A stretch of DNA of 55,764 nucleotides from Butyricicoccus sp. Marseille-Q5471 (lineage in GTDB: Bacteria; Bacillota; Clostridia; Oscillospirales; Butyricicoccaceae). Both the position numbers and the translations under genes were made by a program. Below, piece after piece: positions 13,096 to 27,664 of this stretch (its first letter is position 1; every line of letters begins with the position of its first letter). Under the pieces are notes generated by a model. The model ran no database searches, had not been told where the DNA came from, and was given only the letters and a program-made list of their open reading frames with translations. The stretch is from contig NZ_CATNVC010000014.1 in the NCBI RefSeq assembly GCF_951230135.1, forward strand, positions 1 through 55,764, given 5' to 3'.

Positions 13096-13889
13096 TTGTC
13101 CAGTTCCTCATGCGCCGCGTGAACAACTGCTGCCAGTTCAGGTATGGTTTCAGCCGCGCACTTGCTTAAGTATCCCAGAAATTCAATATTGCCTTCCGGG
13201 CCCTTGATTGGCGAGAAAGTAACGTTTTGCACGGCAAAGCCCGCCTCATGGGCGTTTTCAATGAAATTCTCCAGCACTTCCAGATGGATTTCCGGCTCGC
13301 GCACAACGCCTTTTTTGCCGACCTTGCCCTTACCTGCTTCAAACTGCGGCTTAATCAGGCACGCGACCCGTCCGTCCTCGGACAGCAGGCTCGACACCAC
13401 CGGCAGCACCAGCTTGAGGGAGATGAACGATACGTCAATCACGCACAGCGAGGGGATTTCCGTCAGCTGCTCGGGCGTGACGTAACGAATATTCGTGCGC
13501 TCCATGCAGACGACGCGCGGGTCCTGCCGCAGGCTCCACGCCAGCTGCCCATAGCCCACGTCAATTGAATACACCTTCTGCGCACCGCGGCGCAGCAGGC
13601 AATCGGTAAAGCCGCCGGTCGAAGCGCCCACGTCCATCACGACCAAATCCTTCGGGTCGATGCCGAAATAGTCCAGCGCCTTTTCAATTTTATGTCCGCC
13701 GCGCGAAACAAAGGCCTTGCCCATGTCCCGCACCTCAATTTCCGCGTCCTCCGGGATCGTCATGCCTGCCTTATCCGCCTTCTGACCGTTGACATAGACC
13801 AGTCCCGCCATAATGGTGGTCTTGGCACGCTCGCGCGAGGGTACAAGCCCGCGCTCAAACAGCGCGACATCCAATCGCAGTTTACTCAA
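13092..13889 (-). CDS. tlyA: TlyA-family rRNA 2'-O-methyltransferase (hemolysin A homologue)
   Basis: 265 residues. An N-terminal S4 domain (LRLDVALFERGLVPSRERAKTTIMAGLVYVNG) precedes a Rossmann methyltransferase (VVMDVGASTGGFTDCLL, SAM-binding). The family methylates 16S/23S rRNA riboses. The best start is TTG at 13887-13889, overlapping the dxs stop as TTGA. An upstream extension would run into dxs. Typical dxs-tlyA-nadK order. Confidence 0.93.
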   Translation of the reverse strand: MSKLRLDVALFERGLVPSRERAKTTIMAGLVYVNGQKADKAGMTIPEDAEIEVRDMGKAFVSRGGHKIEKALDYFGIDPKDLVVMDVGASTGGFTDCLLRRGAQKVYSIDVGYGQLAWSLRQDPRVVCMERTNIRYVTPEQLTEIPSLCVIDVSFISLKLVLPVVSSLLSEDGRVACLIKPQFEAGKGKVGKKGVVREPEIHLEVLENFIENAHEAGFAVQNVTFSPIKGPEGNIEFLGYLSKCAAETIPELAAVVHAAHEELDK

Positions 13890-15751
13890 TTCAGTGCCTC
13901 CAAAACAGCCTGCGCCATACTCTCGGCATTCAGGCCGCAATATTCATATAACTCCGGTACGCTGCCGTGCGGCAGAAACCGATCTCCCGTATTGCACAGC
14001 AGAAGATGGTCGGCTTTTAGGCCGTGTTCCGCCAACGCGGCTGCCACCGCTTCGCCCACGCCGCCTCGCTGCACCACATCCTCCGCAATCAGTGCGGCGC
14101 GCGCGGATGCAACCTGCTGCAGAAACGCATCCTCAAAGGGCGCTGTCAAATCGTTGATTTTGTATATGGCAGTTCGAATGCCCTGCTTGTCCAGCCGTTC
14201 GGCAGCATCAAAGGCCTCGTTAATCATCACACCGTAGCTGACAATCACCGCATCTGCGCCTTGGCGAATCTGCACCAGCGCCGCACCAGCCGTGTTTTGG
14301 AGGAATCCTCCCTCTCCGCCGCGCGGATAGCGGATTGCAACCGCGCCGCTGTCCCGATAAATCGCCTGGCTGAGCATGGAGCGCAGTTCAGCAAAATTGG
14401 AGGGCGCATACAGCGTAATTCCCGGAATTTGGCGTAAAAAAGCCACGTCAAACACACCGTTGTGGGTTGCACCATCCGCGCCGACAATACCCGCGCGGTC
14501 AATAGCGAACACCAGATGAATGCTGCCGTCAATTGCAACATCGTGAATCAGCTGATCGTATCCTCGCTGCAAAAAGGTAGAATACAGTGCAACGACGGGC
14601 ACCAATCCCTGCTTGGCCATGCCTGCCGCCATTGCGATCGCATGCTCCTCAGCAATGCCGACGTCGAAAAATCGATCCTTATAGGTTTCCGCGAACTGCG
14701 TCAGACCCGTGCCGGACGGCATTGCCGCCGTGATTGCACAAATCCGGCCGTCCTTTGCCGCAAGCGCACCCAATTCCTTGCCAAAGCAAGCCGAAAAATC
14801 CTCCGCCGAGGGCGACAGGCTCTCGCCCGTAATCGGATTGAACTTAGAAACGCCGTGAAACTTTTCAGGACTCTGCTCGCTCGGCATATAGCCGCGCCCC
14901 TTTTGGGTCATCACATGCAACAGAACAGGCTTCTTCATTTTTTTCGCCTGCGAGAGTAGCTCGCACACAGATTTTAAATCGTGTCCGTCAACCGGTCCCA
15001 GATAGGCAAATCCCATCTGCTCAAACAGTGACGTAGGCAGCAGCAGCCGTTTCAGGCGCGCCTTGAAGCGAGAAATGCAGTCGGTCATCCGTTTGCCGCC
15101 CGGCATATGCGCGAGGCCGTCCTTAATTCGTGTTTTCGCACGCAGATACTTGGGATGCACGCGTAAACGCGACAAATGCCGGCTCAGGCCGCCGACATTC
15201 TGTGCAATGGACATATTATTGTCGTTCAGCACAACCAGCAGCGGTTCACCGCTCGTACCTGCGCTGTTGAGCGCCTCATACACCATGCCGCCTGTCATCG
15301 CGCCGTCGCCAATCACAGCGACCACATGATATTTTTGGTTTTTCAGTGTGCGTGCATGCGCCATGCCAAGCGCAACCGACACCGAATTGGAAGCGTGCCC
15401 GGTAATGCAAGGGTCGGCAATGCTTTCCTCAGGCTTCATAAACCCAGACAAACCGCCGAACTGGCGCAGGGAATCGAAGCGGTCACGGCGGCCGGTCAGA
15501 ATCTTGTGCACATAGCTCTGATGTCCGACATCATAAATGATGCGGTCGAGTGAAGAGTCAAACTCCCGCTCCAGTGCGACAGCCAGTTCGACAATGCCAA
15601 GATTGGACGCCAAATGACCGCCCGTACGGGACACGCTGTCTACAATGAATTCGCGCAGGGATGCACAGAGCATGCCCAGCGAATCATAGGACAGTTCCCG
15701 CAAATCGGCCGGTCCTGTTATATTGTCTAAAATACCATAACGTTTTTTCAT
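13886..15751 (-). CDS. dxs: 1-deoxy-D-xylulose-5-phosphate synthase
   Basis: 621 residues from the ATG at 15749-15751, matching the usual ~620. The thiamine diphosphate motif is GDGAMTGGMVYEALN, with GHQSYVHKILTGR upstream. The pyrimidine-binding and C-terminal transketolase domains include DRAGIVGADGATHNGVFD. It condenses pyruvate and glyceraldehyde-3-phosphate in the first step of the MEP isoprenoid pathway. An in-frame extension to 15826 overlaps the membrane-protein gene and is rejected. It follows oapA and shares the run with ispA, the prenyl-chain enzyme. Confidence 0.96.
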   Translation of the reverse strand: MKKRYGILDNITGPADLRELSYDSLGMLCASLREFIVDSVSRTGGHLASNLGIVELAVALEREFDSSLDRIIYDVGHQSYVHKILTGRRDRFDSLRQFGGLSGFMKPEESIADPCITGHASNSVSVALGMAHARTLKNQKYHVVAVIGDGAMTGGMVYEALNSAGTSGEPLLVVLNDNNMSIAQNVGGLSRHLSRLRVHPKYLRAKTRIKDGLAHMPGGKRMTDCISRFKARLKRLLLPTSLFEQMGFAYLGPVDGHDLKSVCELLSQAKKMKKPVLLHVMTQKGRGYMPSEQSPEKFHGVSKFNPITGESLSPSAEDFSACFGKELGALAAKDGRICAITAAMPSGTGLTQFAETYKDRFFDVGIAEEHAIAMAAGMAKQGLVPVVALYSTFLQRGYDQLIHDVAIDGSIHLVFAIDRAGIVGADGATHNGVFDVAFLRQIPGITLYAPSNFAELRSMLSQAIYRDSGAVAIRYPRGGEGGFLQNTAGAALVQIRQGADAVIVSYGVMINEAFDAAERLDKQGIRTAIYKINDLTAPFEDAFLQQVASARAALIAEDVVQRGGVGEAVAAALAEHGLKADHLLLCNTGDRFLPHGSVPELYEYCGLNAESMAQAVLEALN

Positions 15752-15771: not shown

Positions 15772-16371
15772 CTATTGCCTCTTTTTGTCCAGAGAAAGGG
15801 GCAGCACCGACAGGATGCGGCCGCACACCGCAAGGATTCGTCCGCTGAATGCAAGTGCAAGTCCCTTGCCGGCAGCTTTGCCGCCGATGGTCAGCGCTGA
15901 AATCAGACCGGTAATCAGCAGAGAAAGTGCCACCGTCTGGATTGCGCTCTTGCCCGACGAAATGCCGGCAACAATCAGCGCACCTGTTGCACCCGAGATA
16001 ATACCCGAGATATCGCCGATGACGTCGTTGCAGATGCTAGAAACCTTTTCGGCGTTTCGTGTCATCCAAACCGCTTCCTTCGCGCCCTTGACCTTGCGTG
16101 CGGCCATGGAGTGAAACTCCTTTTCCGTCGCAGCGGTCGAAGCCACACCGATCATGTCGAACACGATGCCCAGCGCAATGAACACAAACAGCACAATGAA
16201 CGACGTAATCGTATTGGCGTTGTTCAGCGCTTCGTTTGACAGGTAGGACATTGCCATCGAAAGCACCAGGCTTACCGGCATAATTGTGCCGACCCAGCGC
16301 CAGTTAACCAGCCGCGGTTTAGTCGGTGCGGACTGCTGTTTTTTCTTCTGTTGTCTGTCGGTTCCGTCCAA
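15772..16371 (-). CDS. oapA: OLE-associated membrane protein OapA-like (DUF21/CNNM-related)
   Basis: 199 residues. A basic Lys/Gln-rich N-terminus (about 6-20) precedes four hydrophobic segments (about 29-44, 56-78, 130-143, 145-165). The middle, TAATEKEFHSMAARKVKGAKEAVWMTRNAEKVSSICNDVIGD, resembles the DUF21 core of CNNM/CorB-type magnesium proteins, but the CBS and CorC domains are absent. Known OapA proteins have this size and type, bind OLE RNA at the membrane, and are encoded between ole and dxs exactly as here. The start is TTG at 16369-16371 after AAAGGGG; the next in-frame ATG is 30 codons in. The family call rests on synteny and fold-like features. Confidence 0.8.
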   Translation of the reverse strand: MDGTDRQQKKKQQSAPTKPRLVNWRWVGTIMPVSLVLSMAMSYLSNEALNNANTITSFIVLFVFIALGIVFDMIGVASTAATEKEFHSMAARKVKGAKEAVWMTRNAEKVSSICNDVIGDISGIISGATGALIVAGISSGKSAIQTVALSLLITGLISALTIGGKAAGKGLALAFSGRILAVCGRILSVLPLSLDKKRQ

Positions 16372-16393: not shown

Positions 16394-16415
16394 AAAAATA
16401 ACGCCCATACGGGCG
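16394..16415 (-). terminator. Hairpin between OLE RNA and oapA
   Basis: CGCCC-GTAT-GGGCG stem-loop on the minus strand followed by TTATTTTT (T-rich at 16394-16398). It could end or trim OLE RNA while letting some transcripts continue into oapA-dxs. The stem is only 5 bp, so termination is probably partial. Confidence 0.5.
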
Positions 16416-16429
16416 GTTCTGCTTATCAT

Positions 16430-17050
16430 AAAGTGACAGCAGACAGAGTAAATCTTACGGCTTGAGGTTCGGTTGGTTTTCCCCGCGAACTACCACGCGT
16501 CGCCGTCATGGCGGTTTCCCTTTAAAGTTCGTGCCGGGATGTTACCATCACCGGGACCGAATTGCCACTGAGTCCGTACTGCAATCCTCTGTCTGCCTCT
16601 GTGAGAACAGCCTAGGTGATTTCCACAACAGGCAACGCGATTCTTAGCCTCTTTTGCAGGCATGGTTTCAAGCGTCAATTCCCACGGGTTCCTGGCCGGG
16701 AAACCGCGGGCGGATACCCTATCCACCATGACCACTCAAGGCAGGCTACACTGCACACAGCGTTTTGCCCCCGAAGGAGCGCCGCACCGCAATACAGGTT
16801 TCATCCTGCACCGTAGGACATCCATCAACCCCCGAAGGGATGCTATAGGTGTCCCACGCATGCAGGTCTCCACGGCGGGAGGGTCGGTACTTCATGCCAT
16901 TGAAGCGCGCCCTCGAGCCTTAACCTCCAGCATCCACCCCAAACTGGGCGTAAGAAGCAAACACCAGAGACTTCATCGATATGCCCTTCTACGGATTTTT
17001 AGGCCCGTCCTGGGAATCGCATGCGCTGACTAAGGATACTGTGTCACTTT
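16430..17050 (-). ncRNA. ole: OLE RNA (ornate large extremophilic RNA)
   Basis: About 621 bases without a credible gene, between ispA and a DUF21-like membrane protein followed by dxs. The ends pair perfectly: AAAGTGACA at 17042-17050 with TGTCACTTT at 16430-16438, a 9-bp closing helix. Many internal hairpins are visible, for example around 16817-16845. Known OLE RNAs are ~610 bases, lie in exactly this isoprenoid operon and form a membrane complex with OapA linked to stress and magnesium tolerance. A promoter sits 7 bases upstream. Covariance-model confirmation was not possible here; identity rests on size, ends, context and partner gene. Confidence 0.85.
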
Positions 17051-17057
17051 GCTAGGT

Positions 17058-17086
17058 ATTCTACCACAAGCATGGAAAAAATTCAA
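17058..17086 (-). promoter_or_regulatory. Promoter immediately upstream of OLE RNA
   Basis: TTGAAT (17081-17086) and TAGAAT (17058-17063) with a 17-base spacer on the minus strand, starting 13 bases after the ispA stop codon. The expected start falls at the first bases of the closing helix (about 17050), so OLE RNA can be made independently of the nusB-ispA transcript. Confidence 0.7.
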
Positions 17087-17098
17087 GTAAAAACCGCG

Positions 17099-17986
17099 TT
17101 ATTTGACCCGCCCGATTAAACTGCCGGTCAATTTCCCCAGAAAAGCGCTGTCCGGGAATGTCGAAATTGCATCGATTGCCTCACCGCTGAGCGCGGTCAC
17201 AAGACGCTTGCACTCCTCCATGCCGAGCAGCGACGGAAAGGTCGATTTCTCGCTTTTCTCATCCTTGCCAACCGATTTTCCAAGTGTTGCCGCGTCGCCC
17301 TCAATATCAAGAATGTCGTCCTGAATCTGAAACGCCAGCCCCAGCTTGTCGCCGTAGGTTTCGGCGGCGCGAAGCGTATCCGCATCGTCTTTACCTGCCG
17401 CCAGACAGCCGACCACCGCCGCAATGCGAATCAGACGGCCGGTTTTCAGCCGCTGCAGGCGCTGGAGCGTTTCCAAATCAATCTGCTTGTGCTCGCTTTC
17501 CATGTCGAGCACCTGTCCGCCGATCATGCCGGTCATTCCTGCCGCCTGCGCCATGTAACCGATTGCGCGCAGCACGGTTTCGGCAGGCAGCTTTTCGGCG
17601 TTTGCCGATGAAATCTCAAAGGCACGCGTCAGCAGTGCGTCACCCGCGAGCAATGCAGTCGCTTCACCAAACACCTTGTGGCTGGTCGGACGTCCGCGGC
17701 GCAAATCATCGTTGTCCATACACGGCAGATCATCATGGATGAGCGAATAGGTGTGAATCATTTCCAGTGCGCACGCAAAGGGCAACGCGTTTTCCGTTTC
17801 ACCGCCGCACATGCGGCAGAACGCCAGCAAAATGACCGGACGTAGACGCTTGCCGCCCGCCATCGCGGAGTATTTTGCCGCCTTGAAAATCACATCATAG
17901 CCTTCGCCGTTCTCGCCCGACAGATAGGCCTCAAGCGCCTGTTCAATCCGTGCAATATCGTCCGACAGCTGCTTTTCAAAATCCAT
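17099..17986 (-). CDS. ispA: Polyprenyl synthetase (farnesyl/geranylgeranyl diphosphate synthase)
   Basis: 295 residues from the ATG at 17984-17986 with GGAGGA upstream. The first Asp-rich motif is DDLPCMDNDDLRRGRPTSH, the second DDILD, with GKRLRP at about 54. It condenses isopentenyl diphosphate with allylic diphosphates, using the MEP product supplied through dxs encoded downstream. One base separates it from the xseB stop. The residue before the first DDxxxxD, the chain-length region, is not diagnostic by eye, so the exact product length is open. Confidence 0.94.
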   Translation of the reverse strand: MDFEKQLSDDIARIEQALEAYLSGENGEGYDVIFKAAKYSAMAGGKRLRPVILLAFCRMCGGETENALPFACALEMIHTYSLIHDDLPCMDNDDLRRGRPTSHKVFGEATALLAGDALLTRAFEISSANAEKLPAETVLRAIGYMAQAAGMTGMIGGQVLDMESEHKQIDLETLQRLQRLKTGRLIRIAAVVGCLAAGKDDADTLRAAETYGDKLGLAFQIQDDILDIEGDAATLGKSVGKDEKSEKSTFPSLLGMEECKRLVTALSGEAIDAISTFPDSAFLGKLTGSLIGRVK

Positions 17987-17987
17987 A

Positions 17988-18221
17988 TCAGACTTCCTCC
18001 GCCTCAAACGGCTCTTCCCGCAGTTCGCCCTGCTCGTTTTCCATCATGACCGTCACCTTTTGCTCCGCCTTGTCCAGCAGCTTACCAAGTGCGGCCGAAA
18101 GCTTGGTTCCTTCTTCAAACAGCTTCATGCTGTCTGCCAGGGGCGCTTCGCCTTTTTCGAGCAGACGTACAATTTCCTCCAACCGCTCCATTTGGCCCTC
18201 AAACGTTTTTTCTATCGCCAT
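17988..18221 (-). CDS. xseB: Exodeoxyribonuclease VII small subunit
   Basis: 77 residues, all-helical, with the family core FEGQMERLEEIVRLLEKGEAPLADSMKLFEEGTKLSAALGKLLDKAE. It partners the XseA large subunit to degrade single-stranded DNA. The ATG at 18219-18221 uses an AAAGGAG that overlaps the xseA stop codon, six bases away. Confidence 0.95.
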   Translation of the reverse strand: MAIEKTFEGQMERLEEIVRLLEKGEAPLADSMKLFEEGTKLSAALGKLLDKAEQKVTVMMENEQGELREEPFEAEEV

Positions 18222-18227
18222 GTGCGT

Positions 18228-19493
18228 TTACTCCTTTTCGGTATCCGTCACGCGGCAGCACGCCGCGCCTTTTGCAAATTGGATGCGCAATTCCTCGCCT
18301 ATGTTGAGGGATGCGGCATCGGTCACAATGCCCGCGCTGCCTGTTGCAACCGCATAGCCGCGACTGAGCACCTTAAGCGGACTGATTGCATCGAGTGTTG
18401 CCACCGTGCGCGTAAACCGCAGGCGGCGTGTCTGCGTCATCCCTCTCCCAACGGTGAGCAGGCGGTGGTTCATCAGTTTCAGACTCTGCCGGTCGCGCGC
18501 AAGACGCGCGGGGAGCGCACTCAGCAAACGCTCGGATATATGGTCAAGCAGCAGTCGTTTCTCATCAATATACTTCGCGGGGGTGCGGAGCGCCAGACGC
18601 TCCTGCAAGCCCTCCAGCCGATGCCGTGCCATTGCAGTGCGCCGATTTGCCGCTACATGCAGCCGTGCATCCATCTGACGCACCGTCTGCCGGTATTCCA
18701 TCCGGTCGGGCACGGCCAATTCGGCGGCTCCGGACGGCGTCGGTGCGCGCAAATCGGCGACAAAGTCGGCAATCGTGACATCCGGCTCATGGCCAACGGC
18801 CGAAATCACCGGCAGCTCGCTTGCAAAAATCGCCCGCGCGACCGCTTCCTCGTTAAACGCCCACAAATCCTCGATTGAGCCGCCGCCGCGGCCGCACAGA
18901 ATGACATCCGCTTCGCCAATCGCGTTTGCAAGTGCAATCGCACGGCTGATACTCTCTGCCGCGCCCTGCCCCTGCACCTGTGCCGGATAGAGCGTCACCT
19001 TGGCCAGCGGCCAGCGGCGTCCCAGAATACGAGTCATGTCCCGCGCCGCAGCGCCGGTCGGCGAAGTCACAAGCGCGACATGCTCCGGGCAGTACGGAAT
19101 CGGCTTTTTATAGTGTTCGTCAAACAGCCCTTCTATCTGCAGCTTGCGTTTGAGCTGCTCGAACGCGAGATTGAGCGCACCAGCACCGTCCGGCATCAGC
19201 TCGGTCAGATAGAGCTGCACCTGGCCCGACTTGGGGAATGAACTGACGCGCCCGCGCGCAATGACCTTCATGCCGTTTTCCGGCCGGAATTTGAGCCGCA
19301 TCGCGTCCGAGCGAAACATGACGGCATTAATCGATGCGCCTTCATCTTTTAGCGTCATGTACTGGTGTCCGGAAGAATGCGCCTTGTAATTCGACAGCTC
19401 GCCCTGCACCAGCAGATTGCGATAACCGGGGACGGCATCCAGCAAATCTTTAATTTCGTTATTCAGTTGAGTGACGGAATAAACTACGCTCAC
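18228..19493 (-). CDS. xseA: Exodeoxyribonuclease VII large subunit
   Basis: 421 residues. An N-terminal OB-fold (VVYSVTQLNNEIKDLLDAVPGYRNLLVQGELSNYKAHSSGHQYMTLKDE) precedes the catalytic domain with the conserved GRGGGSIEDLWAFNEE and a C-terminal coiled coil. It processes single-stranded DNA in both directions. The start codon is GTG (19491-19493), overlapping the preceding stop as GTGA. Confidence 0.95.
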   Translation of the reverse strand: MSVVYSVTQLNNEIKDLLDAVPGYRNLLVQGELSNYKAHSSGHQYMTLKDEGASINAVMFRSDAMRLKFRPENGMKVIARGRVSSFPKSGQVQLYLTELMPDGAGALNLAFEQLKRKLQIEGLFDEHYKKPIPYCPEHVALVTSPTGAAARDMTRILGRRWPLAKVTLYPAQVQGQGAAESISRAIALANAIGEADVILCGRGGGSIEDLWAFNEEAVARAIFASELPVISAVGHEPDVTIADFVADLRAPTPSGAAELAVPDRMEYRQTVRQMDARLHVAANRRTAMARHRLEGLQERLALRTPAKYIDEKRLLLDHISERLLSALPARLARDRQSLKLMNHRLLTVGRGMTQTRRLRFTRTVATLDAISPLKVLSRGYAVATGSAGIVTDAASLNIGEELRIQFAKGAACCRVTDTEKE

Positions 19494-21502: not shown

Positions 21503-22030
21503 TCACGCTGCTTCAACGATTTTGATCTGATCGGCGCTCACACCGGTCTCTTCGATTACGATATCCTTGATGACGGTCGCGTCCGTTGCCTGCAGGCCGC
21601 CCTCAGGTGGTGCAACAACAACATTTACGCTTGCGTCGCCCATCATGACAACTGCATCGTCATAACCCTTGGCACGGATCAGGCTCTCGACACGCGCCTC
21701 TGTCACCGAGTTTTCAGCCAGTACCGAAATCTGCGCGGCCGCGTCGTCCTTCGCCGTGTCTGCCGCCTTATCGCTCTCCGTTGTTTCCTTCAGGATGCTG
21801 ATCGCTTCATCCCGCGCCTGTTCGCGTGTGAGACGAGAGGTTGCAAAGTAGTCGTCGCCGGTTGCCGCCGCACCCTCAGCGTCAGCACTTGCCGGCTCCC
21901 CTGTGTCCGTTTGTCCCGCGACCAGCAGTTCGTCCGGTGCGCCCACGAAGTTCCAGTTCAAGTAGATGGCCACACACAGCATAAGCGCGATCACGCCATA
22001 GATTGCCCCGCGTTTTTTGATTTTTTTCAT
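21503..22030 (-). CDS. spoIIIAH: Stage III sporulation protein AH
   Basis: 175 residues. A basic N-terminus and one membrane segment (IYGVIALMLCVAIYLNWNFVG) are followed by an extracellular Ala/Asp-rich region. The C-terminal YscJ/FliF-like domain contains LTREQARDEAISILKE and ends in a ring-building motif. SpoIIIAH in the mother cell membrane pairs with forespore SpoIIQ to form the intercellular channel. The ATG at 22028-22030 is preferred over an in-frame TTG two codons upstream. Last gene of the spoIIIA operon. Confidence 0.93.
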   Translation of the reverse strand: MKKIKKRGAIYGVIALMLCVAIYLNWNFVGAPDELLVAGQTDTGEPASADAEGAAATGDDYFATSRLTREQARDEAISILKETTESDKAADTAKDDAAAQISVLAENSVTEARVESLIRAKGYDDAVVMMGDASVNVVVAPPEGGLQATDATVIKDIVIEETGVSADQIKIVEAA

Positions 22031-22064
22031 GTCCAATTCGCCCTCCCAACATTGTTGCTACTAT

Positions 22065-22616
22065 TTATGAATCTGCTGCCATTTTTAGAACGGTTACTTT
22101 GTCCGTCCCCACGCCGCACAGCGTGGAAACCGCCTGTGTCACGGCATACCGAACGGTCGTATTGTTCGCCCCATCGCACAGCACGACCGCGCCGCGGAAG
22201 GTTGGAAGCAGATTTTTGACCGTGACCGGATTTTCGCCATAACTGCCGTCCGAAACGACCGTCAGATTGCTTTCATAACTCTGCACGCTCGCGCCGTTCT
22301 CCGTGCGGCGCACATTGACCGCATAAACCGACTCCTCGGTCTCCTCAAGCGACAGCATGAGTGATACACGCCCAACTCCATCAATTGCGGAAAGTTGCTC
22401 GTTGAGGCTCTGCTCAAATTCATCCAGATCAAATAGCGCAGGCTCCAGCCCCTCTGCCGAGGGCGCCTTGACCTGCTGTGTATCTTTGAACAGCCCGCCC
22501 GACGCAAGCAGCAGCACGCCCGCAATCAGTACAATCAGTACCGCGCGATATTTTTTGAGCACCGGCACCACTTTTTCCGTCACCGGCCTCAGCCATGCAA
22601 GGTCTATGTTTTTCAT
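22065..22616 (-). CDS. spoIIIAG: Stage III sporulation protein AG
   Basis: 183 residues from the ATG at 22614-22616, overlapping the spoIIIAF stop as ATGA. One membrane segment (AVLIVLIAGVLLLASGGLF) is followed by a ring-building domain with LSAIDGVGRVSLMLSLEE and PTFRGAVVLCDGANNTTVRYAVTQAVSTLCG, a typical AG ending. It forms the large ring of the forespore-mother cell channel. Confidence 0.94.
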   Translation of the reverse strand: MKNIDLAWLRPVTEKVVPVLKKYRAVLIVLIAGVLLLASGGLFKDTQQVKAPSAEGLEPALFDLDEFEQSLNEQLSAIDGVGRVSLMLSLEETEESVYAVNVRRTENGASVQSYESNLTVVSDGSYGENPVTVKNLLPTFRGAVVLCDGANNTTVRYAVTQAVSTLCGVGTDKVTVLKMAADS

Positions 22617-23089
22617 CTCCGGATCATCTCCTGTCTGTCTGCGGATATGCCGCAATCGTTTTCCAGAATTGTGCGCAGCTCGTCAAGCCGTGGTTCGTCT
22701 GAGGCACGATAATATACAGTCGCTTTATCGCTCTGCAGTACGCCGTTTTCATCGGTTTTCATCGTAATCGTAACCGAGCAGCTAATGCCCTGTTCGGCGG
22801 CATGATCCTCTACGACGCTCGCAATCGTCGCGCCTACCGAACCCATTGTTGTCTGTGCATTTTGCATCTCAATATCGGAGACGTTGACGCCGCTCCCCTT
22901 CATCAGATCGCCAAACGACCCCAGACGCACCTGCGCCAGCGGCTGCACCAGTGCCAACACCATGAGCAGGCCGGCTGCCAGACGCACGGTTTCGCGTAGC
23001 GCCCCCTCCTTCGCGACCGACAACGCGGCGGCGGACGCAATACCCGCCAGCGTAACACGCATTAAAATAGCCTGAAATAATTCTGTCAT
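22613..23089 (-). CDS. spoIIIAF: Stage III sporulation protein AF
   Basis: 158 residues. Two N-terminal membrane segments (about 10-25 and 33-50) precede a soluble domain ending in the diagnostic tail LDELRTILENDCGISADRQEMIRR. Part of the sporulation channel basal apparatus. The ATG overlaps the spoIIIAE stop. Confidence 0.92.
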   Translation of the reverse strand: MTELFQAILMRVTLAGIASAAALSVAKEGALRETVRLAAGLLMVLALVQPLAQVRLGSFGDLMKGSGVNVSDIEMQNAQTTMGSVGATIASVVEDHAAEQGISCSVTITMKTDENGVLQSDKATVYYRASDEPRLDELRTILENDCGISADRQEMIRR

Positions 23090-24171
23090 ATCGGCTTCAC
23101 CATCGCTACCACATAAACCAGTTCAAAATACAGAATCATGCTGCAGGTGGAAAGCATACCGAGTAGCAGACCGAACCCCGTTCCCACGCCTGACAGCAGA
23201 CCCTCCATGCTCTTAGAGCACAGCGGAGATAATACTGCCGCCCCCGCTCGAAAGCACAGATAGGACGCCCCTGCCTGCAAAAACGGCACAATGCAGATGG
23301 CAGTGATACACAGCATGCCGAATACGCCAACCGCGTTTTTTAGAAGCATCGCGCCGGTCAGCATGGTTTCTGTTGCATCCGAAATGATGCCGCCAACGAC
23401 CGGCACTGCGCCTGACACGGCAAATTTTGCCGTCTTAAGCGCCATACGATCCACGCTGCCCGAAACGCCGCCCGCAATTGTTATGTAAGCGATGAACAGC
23501 GTTAGAATCAGCTTGAGTGTGCCTGTTGTCAGACTTTTGATGCCGTCCGCCAATCCTCGCAGCATATCGTTTCCTGTTGCCGCATCGACCGCCACCACCG
23601 CCAGATAGGCGCAGGCAGCGGGCACAAGCAGCGTTGTTATCAGACGGATGACGAAGTCAAACACCAGCATGGTTGCGACCTGCAGCACCGTCGCAGTTGT
23701 TGTGCACCCGCCAATCGACAGCGCCGTTGCAAGCACCGGCTGCAGTACCCCCGAAAAGACGCTGATTTGCTGTAACGCATCGCGGCAAATGGTCAGCACA
23801 CCGGAAAAATCAGTCAGCAGTACGGCCGCGCAGCCGAGTGCGCCCGCCATATCGATTGCACTGTCCGCCCCGCCGCCGACCGCGCTGGAAACACCGCGCC
23901 CGATTGCGGTCAGCATGACGATGACCGAAACCCGCAGCAAACTGCGAAAGGCATTTTGCAGTGCGGTCGTACCGTCCTGCGAAATGTTTTCAATTAGGCG
24001 TGTAAACGAACCGCTCAGGTCAGTCGCATCACTCGCTGTAATGCCATCCAAATAGCCGCGCTGCTCGTTCGGCAGTGCATCCGCCAGTCCCCCCACATCA
24101 CTTTGGTCCAGTGCGCCCGCGCTTGTCAAACAGAGTAACAGCAGCAGACAGCAGAGAAAAATCCGTTTCAT
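23086..24171 (-). CDS. spoIIIAE: Stage III sporulation protein AE
   Basis: 361 residues from the ATG at 24169-24171 (MKRIFLCCLLLLLCL), a signal peptide. There are about seven further hydrophobic segments and the conserved VSGAVPVVGGIISDATETMLTGAMLLKNAVGVFG. A polytopic component of the SpoIIIA channel. An upstream in-frame start would overlap spoIIIAD. Confidence 0.94.
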   Translation of the reverse strand: MKRIFLCCLLLLLCLTSAGALDQSDVGGLADALPNEQRGYLDGITASDATDLSGSFTRLIENISQDGTTALQNAFRSLLRVSVIVMLTAIGRGVSSAVGGGADSAIDMAGALGCAAVLLTDFSGVLTICRDALQQISVFSGVLQPVLATALSIGGCTTTATVLQVATMLVFDFVIRLITTLLVPAACAYLAVVAVDAATGNDMLRGLADGIKSLTTGTLKLILTLFIAYITIAGGVSGSVDRMALKTAKFAVSGAVPVVGGIISDATETMLTGAMLLKNAVGVFGMLCITAICIVPFLQAGASYLCFRAGAAVLSPLCSKSMEGLLSGVGTGFGLLLGMLSTCSMILYFELVYVVAMVKPI

Positions 24172-24184
24172 TTTCGTTTTCCTT

Positions 24185-24574
24185 TCAACGCGCCCAGTCG
24201 CCAACCAAGCTCAGCACCTGCTGAAACAGCGGCAGGCAAGCTGAGATTGCCAGCACTGCGCCCGCGATTTCGACTTTTGCAGCAAGCGCTGACTGCCCGG
24301 CATCCTTGCACAGTGCGCTCATCACGCGTATCACCGTCGCGATGCCCACCACCTTGAGCACCGGCAGATAGAGCGACTGCCCGATTCCGCCTTGCCCAAA
24401 CGCCTGTTCAAAGGTCTGCACCGCACCGCTGATTTCGGAAAACACGCGAAACAAAATGACAAGCCCCGTCACCAGCACAAGCAGGAATGCAATGGCCGGG
24501 CTGTCCTTTTTCAGCGTCAGCGTGAATACGATGGCCAGCAGTGCAAGACCACACAGCGGCATGAGTCCGCTCAA
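24185..24574 (-). CDS. spoIIIAD: Stage III sporulation protein AD
   Basis: 129 residues, four membrane segments, ending VEIAGAVLAISACLPLFQQVLSLVGDW as in AD proteins. The start is TTG (24572-24574), overlapping the spoIIIAC stop as TTGA. The alternative ATG four codons later is possible but lacks the coupling. Confidence 0.92.
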   Translation of the reverse strand: MSGLMPLCGLALLAIVFTLTLKKDSPAIAFLLVLVTGLVILFRVFSEISGAVQTFEQAFGQGGIGQSLYLPVLKVVGIATVIRVMSALCKDAGQSALAAKVEIAGAVLAISACLPLFQQVLSLVGDWAR

Positions 24575-24765
24575 AACCCGAATACGCTCTTCATCATGGA
24601 GAACAGCTGCCCGATCTCCTGCACGATCATCATCAAGACCACAATTAACGCGGCCAAAACGACCATGAGCGCCTGTTCATCCCGTCCCGAACGCGTCAGC
24701 AGCTGGTTGAGTACCGCTACCAGAATGCCGATCGCGGCGATTTTAAAAATCAGATCAACGTCCAT
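24571..24765 (-). CDS. spoIIIAC: Stage III sporulation protein AC
   Basis: 64 residues with two membrane segments: DLIFKIAAIGILVAVLNQLLTRSGRDEQALMVVLAALIVVLMMIVQEIGQLF. The RSGRDEQA linker is the family hallmark. Small membrane component of the SpoIIIA channel. Confidence 0.95.
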   Translation of the reverse strand: MDVDLIFKIAAIGILVAVLNQLLTRSGRDEQALMVVLAALIVVLMMIVQEIGQLFSMMKSVFGF

Positions 24766-24778
24766 AATTTCCTCCGCT

Positions 24779-25297
24779 TCAAATCAGCACCAACACGACC
24801 AGAATACCCATTGCAATGCCGCAGGTGCGGTACAGGTTGCCTTTATTCGTCAGCTCCTGTGCAGCGACCTCGCGTGATGTGCTCAGTCGACGTGAAATCT
24901 GACGCAAACCGGCAAGCTGTTCGGATGCATCATAACGCCCCAGAAAATTTGAGGCCTGGCATAAAATCTCGCATTCCTGATTGCCAAGTCCAATCTCCTC
25001 CCGCATATCCCGCAGATTGGCGCACCACAGATAGCCCAGCGAAAGACCGTTCTGCTCCCGCAGCCGCCGCTGCAGGGCAAGAAACACCCTTGCGACCGCT
25101 TCGTTCTCATTTTCGGTCAATTCCGCGATGATGTCCGGCAGTGTGGCGCGCCGACACTCAATTTCGCTCATAATCAGCGTCAGCGCGAGCAAAAGCGCAT
25201 CCGCTGCCGCCACTCGCCGTCGCAGCTGCTGTCTTGCCGACAGTCCCAGCGCGGCGCACGAACCGAAAATCATCACAGCCCCCAGTAATTTCAGCAT
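24779..25297 (-). CDS. spoIIIAB: Stage III sporulation protein AB
   Basis: 172 residues. N-terminal hydrophobic segment, a soluble helical centre (EIECRRATLPDIIAELTENE) and a C-terminal membrane segment (GIAMGILVVLVLI). AB resembles GspF-like partners of type IV pilus or secretion ATPases. It overlaps spoIIIAA by seven bases. Confidence 0.92.
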   Translation of the reverse strand: MLKLLGAVMIFGSCAALGLSARQQLRRRVAAADALLLALTLIMSEIECRRATLPDIIAELTENENEAVARVFLALQRRLREQNGLSLGYLWCANLRDMREEIGLGNQECEILCQASNFLGRYDASEQLAGLRQISRRLSTSREVAAQELTNKGNLYRTCGIAMGILVVLVLI

Positions 25298-26184
25298 TCT
25301 GATTCCTCCTTGATGTCCTCCACGTGATACGTCCGTTTTTCCCCGTCGAGCGAGACAATTATCACCCGCTCGAACAAATGAAGCGCAAGCAGCTCGCGAT
25401 ACAATGCCCGCCGCCGCAAATCCTCCAAATCCTTCGCATGCGCCGATGCAACGACCGACACGCCGCAGTGTGCACAGAGTCCCACCGCCTGTACATCACC
25501 GGGTGACGTAATCTCATCGAGCGCAATGAGCGCGGGCGACATGGTTTTGAGCAGCATGAGCGCTGCCTGCTGCTTGGAACAGCCTTCGATTACATCGGTG
25601 CACCGCCCTACATCAAACTGCGGTACCCCTTCCGACAGTGCTGCAATTTCGCACCGCTCGTCCGCAACGCCGACCGTCCACCCCGCGTCCGATGTGCGGC
25701 GAATCAGCTCACGCAGCAGCGTTGTTTTGCCAAGACCCGGCGGAGAGATCAGCAGTGTTGAGTGCAGCCGTCCGTCTGACACCAGTTCCAAACCTTCCCC
25801 TGCGTCCCGAATCTGCCGAGCAACGCGCAGGTTGAGCGAGGAGATATTTCGGATGCCGCTCACTTCACCGTTCTCGACCACCGCGGTGCCGCACACGCCC
25901 AGTCGATGTCCCCCTGCGAGCGTGATGTAGCCGTATCGCAGGCTTTCTGCATAGCTATGTACCGAAAAACGTGCCGCACGGCTCAGGATATCGCGCAGCG
26001 TCTCTGCAGAAAGCGGCTCCAAATCCAGCACTCTCTCCTCCAAAGCTGCTTTCACACCCGGAGGCCGCCCTGCGCGCAGACGCAATTCTTCGATTTCTGT
26101 CTGCTCTTCCATTCCTTCCAGCTGCATCCTGAGCAGCGGCGGCATACACTCAGCCGCCTGCTGGAATGCTTTGTCCGTCTTCAT
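25291..26184 (-). CDS. spoIIIAA: Stage III sporulation protein AA (ATPase)
   Basis: 297 residues, a RecA-like secretion ATPase. Walker A is SPPGLGKTTLLRELIRR and the Walker B-type stretch is SPALIALDEITSPGDVQAV. It energises the SpoIIIA channel from the mother cell. First gene of spoIIIAA-AH, expected under sigma-E. A CATACC at about 26223 (minus) could be a -10, but the -35 is a poor match, so no promoter is called. The aro promoter lies back-to-back at 26262. Confidence 0.95.
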   Translation of the reverse strand: MKTDKAFQQAAECMPPLLRMQLEGMEEQTEIEELRLRAGRPPGVKAALEERVLDLEPLSAETLRDILSRAARFSVHSYAESLRYGYITLAGGHRLGVCGTAVVENGEVSGIRNISSLNLRVARQIRDAGEGLELVSDGRLHSTLLISPPGLGKTTLLRELIRRTSDAGWTVGVADERCEIAALSEGVPQFDVGRCTDVIEGCSKQQAALMLLKTMSPALIALDEITSPGDVQAVGLCAHCGVSVVASAHAKDLEDLRRRALYRELLALHLFERVIIVSLDGEKRTYHVEDIKEESEC

Positions 26185-26304: not shown

Positions 26305-26581
26305 CACAAAGCGATGACAGAGGAAAGTAATTGTCCCAAGTGCGGCTTTCAGGGAGTGTCCGGCATGACTGTAAACGGACGCAGACGCCGGTATGATGAA
26401 GTTCCCTCTTGAGCTGCGGCGCTGAACCATTCGTTTAGTAGGCGCTGACGGGTCTCCTCCGTTACAGGGATAGGATATTTTTTGTATCCGAAAAAGTGCG
26501 GCAGAATTTTTTTGCCGAATGTGGGTGGTACCGCGGAACCGTTTGTCTTTCGTCCCTCTTTGTGGATGAAGGGCTTTTTTT
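26305..26581 (+). promoter_or_regulatory. T-box riboswitch (probable tRNA-Phe sensor)
   Basis: Stem I starts with GCGATGACAGAGGAAAGTA (26311-26329). The 3' strand of the specifier loop reads GATGAAGTTCCCTCTTGAGC, placing a likely UUC (Phe) specifier at 26402-26404. The T-box core TGGGTGGTACCGCGG is at 26523-26537. The terminator pairs GTCTTTCGTCC (26545-26555) with GGATGAAGGGC (26564-26574), then seven T. Uncharged tRNA would stabilise the antiterminator and turn on aroF-aroK. The bulge UGGU fits discriminator A of the tRNA-Phe at 8480. The specifier reading is inferential; the T-box itself is clear. Confidence 0.93.
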
Positions 26582-26647: not shown

Positions 26648-27664
26648 ATGATTATCATCATGAAGCCAACTGCAACACGCGAACACGTAGAGGAGTTATC
26701 CGCACTCATGGAACGCTGGAACGTCAAAGCAAACCCGATTTACGGCGAGGGCACGATTGTTATCGGCCTGGTAGGCGATACGGGCGCTGTCGATAAGGAC
26801 GCGCTGCTGCGCGATCCGCAGGTCGACAATATTATTAAGGTGCAGGAGCCGTTTAAGCTCGCCAACCGCAAGATGCACCCGCAGGATTCTCTGGTCACAA
26901 TCGGCAAGGACGTTGTCATCGGCGGCAAGAAAATCATCGTTATGGCCGGCCCCTGCTCGGTTGAGGGTCATGACCAAATCATTGATGTTGCACGTCATGT
27001 TAAGGCGGACGGCGCAACCGTGCTGCGCGGCGGTGCTTGGAAGCCCCGCTCGTCCCCGTACTCTTTCCAGGGCATGAAGGCCGAGGGACTGGATTTGCTG
27101 CACGAAGCCAGCCTCGACACCGGTCTGCCGGTCGTCACCGAAATCACCAATCCCGCGCATATCGATCTGTTCATGGAAAAGTGCGACTGCTTCCAGGTCG
27201 GCGCGCGCAACATGCAGAACTTCGAGCTGCTCAAGGAGCTGGGGCAGGTCAACAAGCCTGTCCTGCTCAAGCGCGGCTTCGCAAACACGATGGAGGAGTT
27301 CCTCATGTCCGCCGAATACCTGATGGCGGGCGGCAACGAGGATGTCATTCTCTGCGAGCGCGGCATCCGCACCTACGAGCAGTACACCCGCAACACACTG
27401 GACATTTCGGCTGTTCCGGTGCTCAAGCGTATGAGCCACCTGCCGGTTATCGTCGACCCGTCACACGCGGGCGGCATCTACTGGATGGTCGAGCCGCTTG
27501 CCAAGGCCGCTGTCGCCGCTGGTGCGGACGGTCTGATGATTGAGGTGCACAACGACCCTGCGCACGCCCTGTCGGACGGTGCACAGTCGCTGACCTACGA
27601 TTCTTTTGCTGAAACTATGGGCAGCCTGCGCGCAGTCGCTCAGGCGGTTGGCCGCGAACTGTAA
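26648..27664 (+). CDS. aroF: 3-deoxy-7-phosphoheptulonate (DAHP) synthase, type I-beta
   Basis: 338 residues. An N-terminal ferredoxin-like regulatory domain (about 1-65, MIIIMKPTATREHVEEL) precedes a TIM barrel with MAGPCSVEG, LRGGAWKPRSSPYSFQG, QVGARNMQNFELL, KPVLLKRGF and VDPSHAGG, the metal- and PEP-binding set of the I-beta class. It condenses PEP and erythrose-4-phosphate in the first shikimate step. ATG at 26648 after AAAAGGAG. First gene behind the T-box; feedback control by the N-terminal domain is likely. Confidence 0.96.
   Translation: MIIIMKPTATREHVEELSALMERWNVKANPIYGEGTIVIGLVGDTGAVDKDALLRDPQVDNIIKVQEPFKLANRKMHPQDSLVTIGKDVVIGGKKIIVMAGPCSVEGHDQIIDVARHVKADGATVLRGGAWKPRSSPYSFQGMKAEGLDLLHEASLDTGLPVVTEITNPAHIDLFMEKCDCFQVGARNMQNFELLKELGQVNKPVLLKRGFANTMEEFLMSAEYLMAGGNEDVILCERGIRTYEQYTRNTLDISAVPVLKRMSHLPVIVDPSHAGGIYWMVEPLAKAAVAAGADGLMIEVHNDPAHALSDGAQSLTYDSFAETMGSLRAVAQAVGREL

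Follow-up and report, generated by a model that had tools for sequence, protein, structure and literature searches.

Full-length OLE RNA and genes for its known partners in an Agathobaculum-like bacterium, and altered P12.2/P13 elements in relatives that lack oapB

What OLE RNA does has long been an open question, and it has been studied mostly in one alkaliphile. Deletion of the RNA in H. halodurans gives phenotypes involving Mg2+, cold, ethanol and carbon source (PMC12054373; this and the other papers are cited here from parts of their text). The most common immediate downstream neighbour of ole is oapA, whose product has four membrane helices (PMC12265935), and a second protein, OapB, binds the P12.2/P13 region of the RNA (PMC9723947, PMC12265935). 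Neither ispA nor dxs is mentioned in the available main text of PMC12265935. OLE RNAs have been reported from 2,822 Bacillota genomes, with gut clades named among them, and variant 1 and variant 2 RNAs have been described from TANB77 and RF39, in which P7–P9 or P7–P8 are shortened or missing (PMC11332333).

We identified an OLE RNA on the minus strand of the window, the whole stretch of 55,764 nucleotides that was analysed. A cmscan search matched the Rfam model RF01071 over all of its positions (1–616 of 616) with an E-value of 2.3e-133 and a score far above the gathering score of 50 (Table 1). This match is the only one in the host genome, which is 99.8% complete (2.94 Mb in 43 contigs). None of 14 control genomes matches RF01071, so the match is not due to chance. 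The bit score lies within the range of 432–482 seen in relatives for matches over model positions 1–616 or 24–616, genus g7 excluded. The initial annotation had called a block of about 621 bases an OLE RNA locus on the letters alone and had proposed a covariance-model search; both the identity and the extent of the block are borne out, and it is near certain that the block is a genuine, well-conserved full-length OLE RNA whose known partners are encoded in the same genome. Judged from its identity and assembly, this is very probably a working OLE RNA gene.

The locus resembles the OLE RNAs of H. halodurans, C. acetobutylicum and C. botulinum in its full model match and P1–P13 architecture, in having oapA immediately downstream and in the presence of the partner genes, whereas its host belongs to a lineage of gut anaerobes. 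Its P6 carries CCUCCC, where a perfect CCUCCU has been reported from H. halodurans (PMC12054373). Gut hosts are shared with the variant 1 and variant 2 RNAs; unlike those, the RNA described here matches the full model, and it has a bulged P13, whereas in variant 1 the OapB site is often absent (PMC11332333).

Table 1. Features of the ole locus in window coordinates, and the loci used for genus g3
Feature	Position	Strand	Basis or remark
dxs	13886..15751	-	PF13292, 374.3 bits
oapA, CNNM/DUF21-like membrane protein, 199 aa, TTG start	15772..16371	-	profile A1; CNNM scores of relatives
Terminator-like GC hairpin, TTATTTTT tail, between ole and oapA	16402..16415	-	pattern scan
OLE RNA, full-length RF01071 match	16417..17063	-	465 bits; RNA body about 16430-17050
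P1 closing helix, 3' arm	16430..16438	-	partner of the 5' arm; covariation
P12.2 + P13 module, reported OapB site	16484..16533	-	alignment and fold
P13 hairpin	about 16493-16511	-	bulged A at 16506
ATCGATGAAGT in J4a/5 (k-turn region, OapC site)	16970..16980	-	identical in 30/30 family rows
P1 closing helix, 5' arm	17042..17050	-	AAAGTGACA pairs with TGTCACTTT
Putative sigma-70-like promoter of ole	17058..17086	-	TTGAAT-17-TAGAAT, TG before second hexamer; pattern scan, 9/12
ispA, polyprenyl synthetase	17099..17986	-	PF00348, 205.6 bits
xseB + xseA, exonuclease VII subunits	17988..19493	-	PF02609, PF02601
g3 loci, map-infA	L163-L172, L182		
g3 loci, OLE	L006, L010, L022, L024, L027, L192		

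The perfect nine-base-pair closing helix noted at the outset is present, and its two arms delimit positions 17050–16430 exactly. Eight of the nine pairs were counted, because the base of the innermost pair is paired elsewhere in the Rfam structure. Across 30 loci of the family, both sides have changed in six of these eight pairs; in 16 loci the bases of the outermost pair do not pair. The Rfam structure together with the eight closing pairs gives 165 pairs, which across the 30 loci are standard in 88.3% of cells. Changes on both sides were seen in 89 of the 165 pairs, against 57.0 in shuffled alignments and 29–45 when the partners were slid; the covariation score was 0.313, against 0.141 shuffled and 0.077–0.100 slid, where the slid control favours the true structure in that it was placed via the window's own row. 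The OLE structure, closing helix included, thus covaries strongly across the family. Helices 10, 4 and 12 are weaker, with 74.8%, 75.9% and 66.3% of cells paired. In P6, an anti-SD-like CCUCC occurs in only 9 of the 30 RNAs, and two G-C pairs (alignment columns 152/185 and 153/184) are invariant. A variable stretch at columns 285–360 has 20 nucleotides here and 3–76 over the 30 loci. The k-turn region was located after PMC9723947 and placed by eye in the present RNA.

The gene order on the minus strand is xseA-xseB-ispA-OLE-oapA-dxs, in agreement with the order initially read from the letters (ispA upstream, a small membrane-protein gene and then dxs downstream). A promoter-like element directly precedes the closing helix, and a TTGAA...TG.TA signal is also present in the consensus upstream of the relatives (30 rows, with L024 on the wrong strand). 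Scanning the region on both strands gave two promoter-like sites where 0.6 would be expected, and four terminator-like sites where 1.1 would be expected. Given these counts, it is plausible, not proven, that ole is flanked by its own promoter-like and terminator-like signals. Farther along the window, the sporulation operon spoIIIA occupies positions 21503–26184, about 4.4 kb from ole; by Pfam it comprises AA, AB, two genes of the AC/AD family, AE and AH. Sporulation genes near ole have been mentioned before (PMC11332333). A T-box leader (26305–26560, plus strand, 106 bits) lies ahead of an ORF at 26648.

Like described OapA proteins, the small membrane protein has about 200 amino acids, is encoded beside ole and carries the CNDV.GDI motif, which is invariant in a 17-row family alignment; unlike them, it scores below the cut-off of CNNM/DUF21 (PF01595), with 13.0 bits against 28.4. 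Neither Pfam nor NCBIfam assigns it to a family with confidence. It aligns along its length with relatives that include the orthologues reaching that cut-off, in G052 (34.8 bits) and G085 (28.3, or 28.7 with neighbours). The gene directly downstream of the RNA is therefore oapA. An OapA profile search of genome contigs confirmed at least 582 loci, and the best 80 of these were retained. Among these 80 the closest are six from Agathobaculum, followed by a Clostridiaceae bacterium and Butyricicoccus; records of the host genome itself may be excluded from this ranking. The host thus appears Agathobaculum-like, in line with the initial guess of a gut anaerobe. Agathobaculum is a butyrate producer.

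The remaining known components of the particle, OapB, OapC and bS21, are all encoded elsewhere in the genome. The gene for OapB lies between map and infA, and the best PDB match of its product is OLE-associated protein B itself (7k9b, E 3.9e-6). Searching for it instead through the KOW domain (PF00467) gave two matches above the cut-off, in frames of 110 and 223 amino acids, which we read as L24 and NusG and set aside. An OapC/YbxF homologue is located just downstream of an ORF read as rpoC, and its top PDB matches are YbxF structures (4lck, E 2.3e-10; 3v7e, E 2.4e-10). The names map, infA and rpoC were read by eye from the ORFs, without a family search. Ribosomal protein bS21 was found with an E-value of 5.4e-21. 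No CNNM match was found in the host genome at E 0.001, and hence no MpfA-like gene.

Among 87 genomes of the family, OLE RNA is present in 50 and OapA in 53; 49 have both and 33 have neither. Only G082 has OLE without OapA, and its match ends 81 bases from a contig end. The reverse is seen in G040, G042, G048 and G081, all of which except G042 are 65–72% complete. In an order-wide sample of 297 genomes, for which a completeness of at least 95 was asked and stricter filters applied, OLE was found in 76 genomes and 34 of 136 genera. This count and the published survey run against the initial view that a setting outside the extremophiles is novel; OLE in gut Bacillota has been published, and the host setting is not new. 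No paper coupling OLE RNA with Butyricicoccus, Agathobaculum or Faecalibacterium was among the literature matches listed, and others may exist.

In G053, G083 and G084, ispA, a DUF212-type (divergent PAP2) ORF and dxs occur in this order (L147, L148 and L149; the Pfam check was made in G083 only), and both ole and oapA are gone. The two genes can therefore be lost jointly while ispA and dxs stay. A decayed OLE remnant between ispA and dxs was sought in relatives without OLE and rejected: to E 1, no Rfam match was found in L147, L148, L149, L152, L153 or L059, apart from a Staphylococcus sRNA in L059, far below its threshold. In G037 (L060 and L061; C32:94000-120500), ole adjoins ispA and oapA adjoins dxs, with about 20 kb of other genes between. 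In G042 (L059, C99), OapA is present and OLE RNA was not detected. Because ole adjoins ispA in G037, a genome of the same genus, and G042, like G039 and G036, gave no ispA, either a deletion or an assembly gap could account for this. An OLE match lies close to oapA in 73 of the best 80 named loci. The other seven (L071, L074, L077–L080 and L086) also gave nothing by cmscan to E 1; in L074 just 91 bases are available upstream of oapA. L071, from Clostridiaceae, has 1,120 bases upstream of oapA without an OLE match, and its ole may sit elsewhere in the genome.

The published anticorrelation between MpfA and OLE (PMC11332333) agrees with the CNNM counts in the family. Strong CNNM copies number none in 24, one in 25 and two in one of the OLE-positive genomes, so that an MpfA-like gene is present in 26 of the 50. 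Among OLE-negative genomes the copy number is zero in eight, one in four, two in 13, three in seven and four in five (P 4.6e-7, uncorrected for kinship and with partial and weak CNNM matches excluded). Within genera g6 and g15, copy number is equal with and without OLE. Replacement of OLE by MpfA is thus supported at the family scale and not within these two genera.

While the OLE finding itself is correct but mostly ordinary, the pattern of P12.2/P13 and OapB among the relatives is the part worth following. With the host's OapB as query, OapB was found in 41 of the 87 genomes, 35 of them OLE-positive and six OLE-negative. In the sister genus g3 only G037 of 12 genomes gave a match. At the map-infA site, inspected by eye among the listed ORFs (G034, whose P13 is canonical, gave no map match), the oapB ORF is missing in ten of the 11 g3 genomes where the site is visible and present in G037, whose P13 is likewise canonical. 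Six of the ten genomes that lack oapB have OLE (G031, G032, G033, G035, G038 and G041). Clade-level absence of OapB has been reported, as have variant OLE RNAs in which the P13 site is often missing, and the available portion of the same paper describes no case of oapB loss within a genus (PMC11332333). Loss of oapB extends beyond g3, since all nine OLE-negative genomes examined from g8, g10, g12 and g13 lack the gene at the map-infA site; oapB can also outlast OLE, as the six OLE-negative genomes with OapB show.

We compared the six RNAs with 44 other OLE RNAs of the family, 35 from OapB-positive genomes and nine others. Of 337 alignment columns conserved at 95% or more in the 44, 25 lie in P12.2/P13. 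Five of the 337 are changed in all six RNAs, four of them in the module (hypergeometric P 1.1e-4). These four correspond to window positions 16526, 16505, 16501 and 16491, each conserved in 44 of 44. With a cut-off of 85%, four of 15 changed columns are in the module, which holds 29 of 409 conserved columns (P 0.016). At this cut-off other groups gave, as plain counts of columns in the module out of columns changed, 3/12 in g4, 0/0 in g2, 0/9 in g7, 0/15 in G037 with G034, 2/30 in g15 and 0/1 in g5. Positions 16526 and 16491 are paired in the canonical RNA (columns 610/645), and this pair, a U-A at the P12.2/P13 junction, is broken in all six. Beside the P13 loop, the six also share a change of a C-G pair to U-G. 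Outside the family GCAA loops are common, and the change at 16501 is nothing unusual there.

The comparison was widened to 100 further loci (L065–L144 and L192–L211), of which 93 have an OLE match; with the 30 family loci these form a 123-row alignment that was not de-duplicated, several named records being the same genomes as ones in our set. Leaving out 12 short or partial rows, 105 full-length OLE RNAs have 299 columns conserved at 85% or more. The sole one of these that differs throughout the six is 16505, which is C in 97 of the 105 and T in the six. Counted from CC to GG, P13 has 18 nucleotides in five of the six RNAs; in G032 it has 19. The other 117 rows comprise 89 with 19 nucleotides, 21 with 20, two with 21, three with 18 and two that could not be read. 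The three 18-nucleotide cases are L117, L124 and L129, records of uncultured Bacilli, Bacillota and Mycoplasmatota. Folding of the 18-nucleotide P13 of G033, G041, L117 and L129 gave no bulge, and the bulge is present in the folds of G000, G037 and G032. In an OLE tree built without P12.2/P13 (G052 and G085, which have long branches, left out), G037 and G034 fall together, the six RNAs are grouped (96/96), and the five without the bulge are nested inside them (91/89); G032, which kept the bulge, is the deepest branch of the six. A map-protein tree left genus g3 unresolved.

The data probably reflect one loss of oapB, with the P12.2/P13 changes on about the same branch and loss of the bulge later in a subgroup, and are suggestive of a connection. 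This order, in which the P12.2/P13 changes precede the loss of the bulge, fits a site freed by loss of its protein; as a single event it gives no statistical proof of the link. We put at about even chances the fuller reading, that g3 lost OapB, that the RNA site for OapB was then rewired, with five of the six RNAs later dropping the one bulged nucleotide so that P13 became an uninterrupted helix, and that OLE would work there with OapA, OapC and bS21.

Several other explanations of the window's locus must be weighed against a working OLE RNA. The interval could encode one or more small proteins rather than an RNA, as it contains ORFs of up to 81 amino acids (minus strand) and 123 amino acids (plus strand). 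However, these are stop-free over more than 90% of their length in just one and five of the 30 family loci, respectively, the window's own row included, and every frame of every locus has at least two stops (median 7–9). With no reading frame conserved among the 30 loci, a protein-coding interval is extremely improbable, and the block is noncoding, as the initial annotation had it. A further possibility is that the copy is decayed or passive and is kept through linkage to ispA and dxs. The complex is evidently dispensable in some lineages, as G053, G083 and G084 kept these neighbours without it, yet the full-length score in the relatives' range, the strong covariation and the presence of genes for OapB, OapC and bS21 make a decayed copy very unlikely.

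If the gene works, its role may still differ from that in the alkaliphile, as the initial annotation suggested. A gut-specific role is in keeping with the different habitat, with the P6 anti-SD mimic not being conserved in the family and with a sister genus that dispenses with OapB; but the RNA architecture, the partners and the gene pair are as published, and we found nothing genus-specific that points to another role. With all known partners encoded, nothing in the sequence separates the role here from that in H. halodurans, and a gut-specific one is unlikely. That the physiological role matches H. halodurans in detail, an argument by analogy, could equally prove right or wrong. Extrapolating from the H. 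halodurans work and cryo-EM of a clostridial OLE RNA, a working RNA in this host would dimerise and be anchored at the membrane by OapA; OapC would hold the k-turn at P5, bS21 would sit at P6 and OapB would grip P12.2/P13, and the particle would help the cell to withstand stress from cold, alcohol, Mg2+ and carbon source. As no MpfA was found in the host, the OapA-OLE particle may carry much of its Mg2+ tolerance.

Intact, jointly lost and OapB-less versions of the system occur in close species among the relatives from Agathobaculum and Butyricicoccus, so that the requirement for each partner can be compared there without engineering, and the P12.2/P13 pattern gives a specific and cheap binding prediction. 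If the fuller reading of g3 is true, the changed P12.2/P13 nucleotides would be part of what OapB reads, and OapB would be a removable folding or stabilising factor rather than a catalytic part of the OLE particle.
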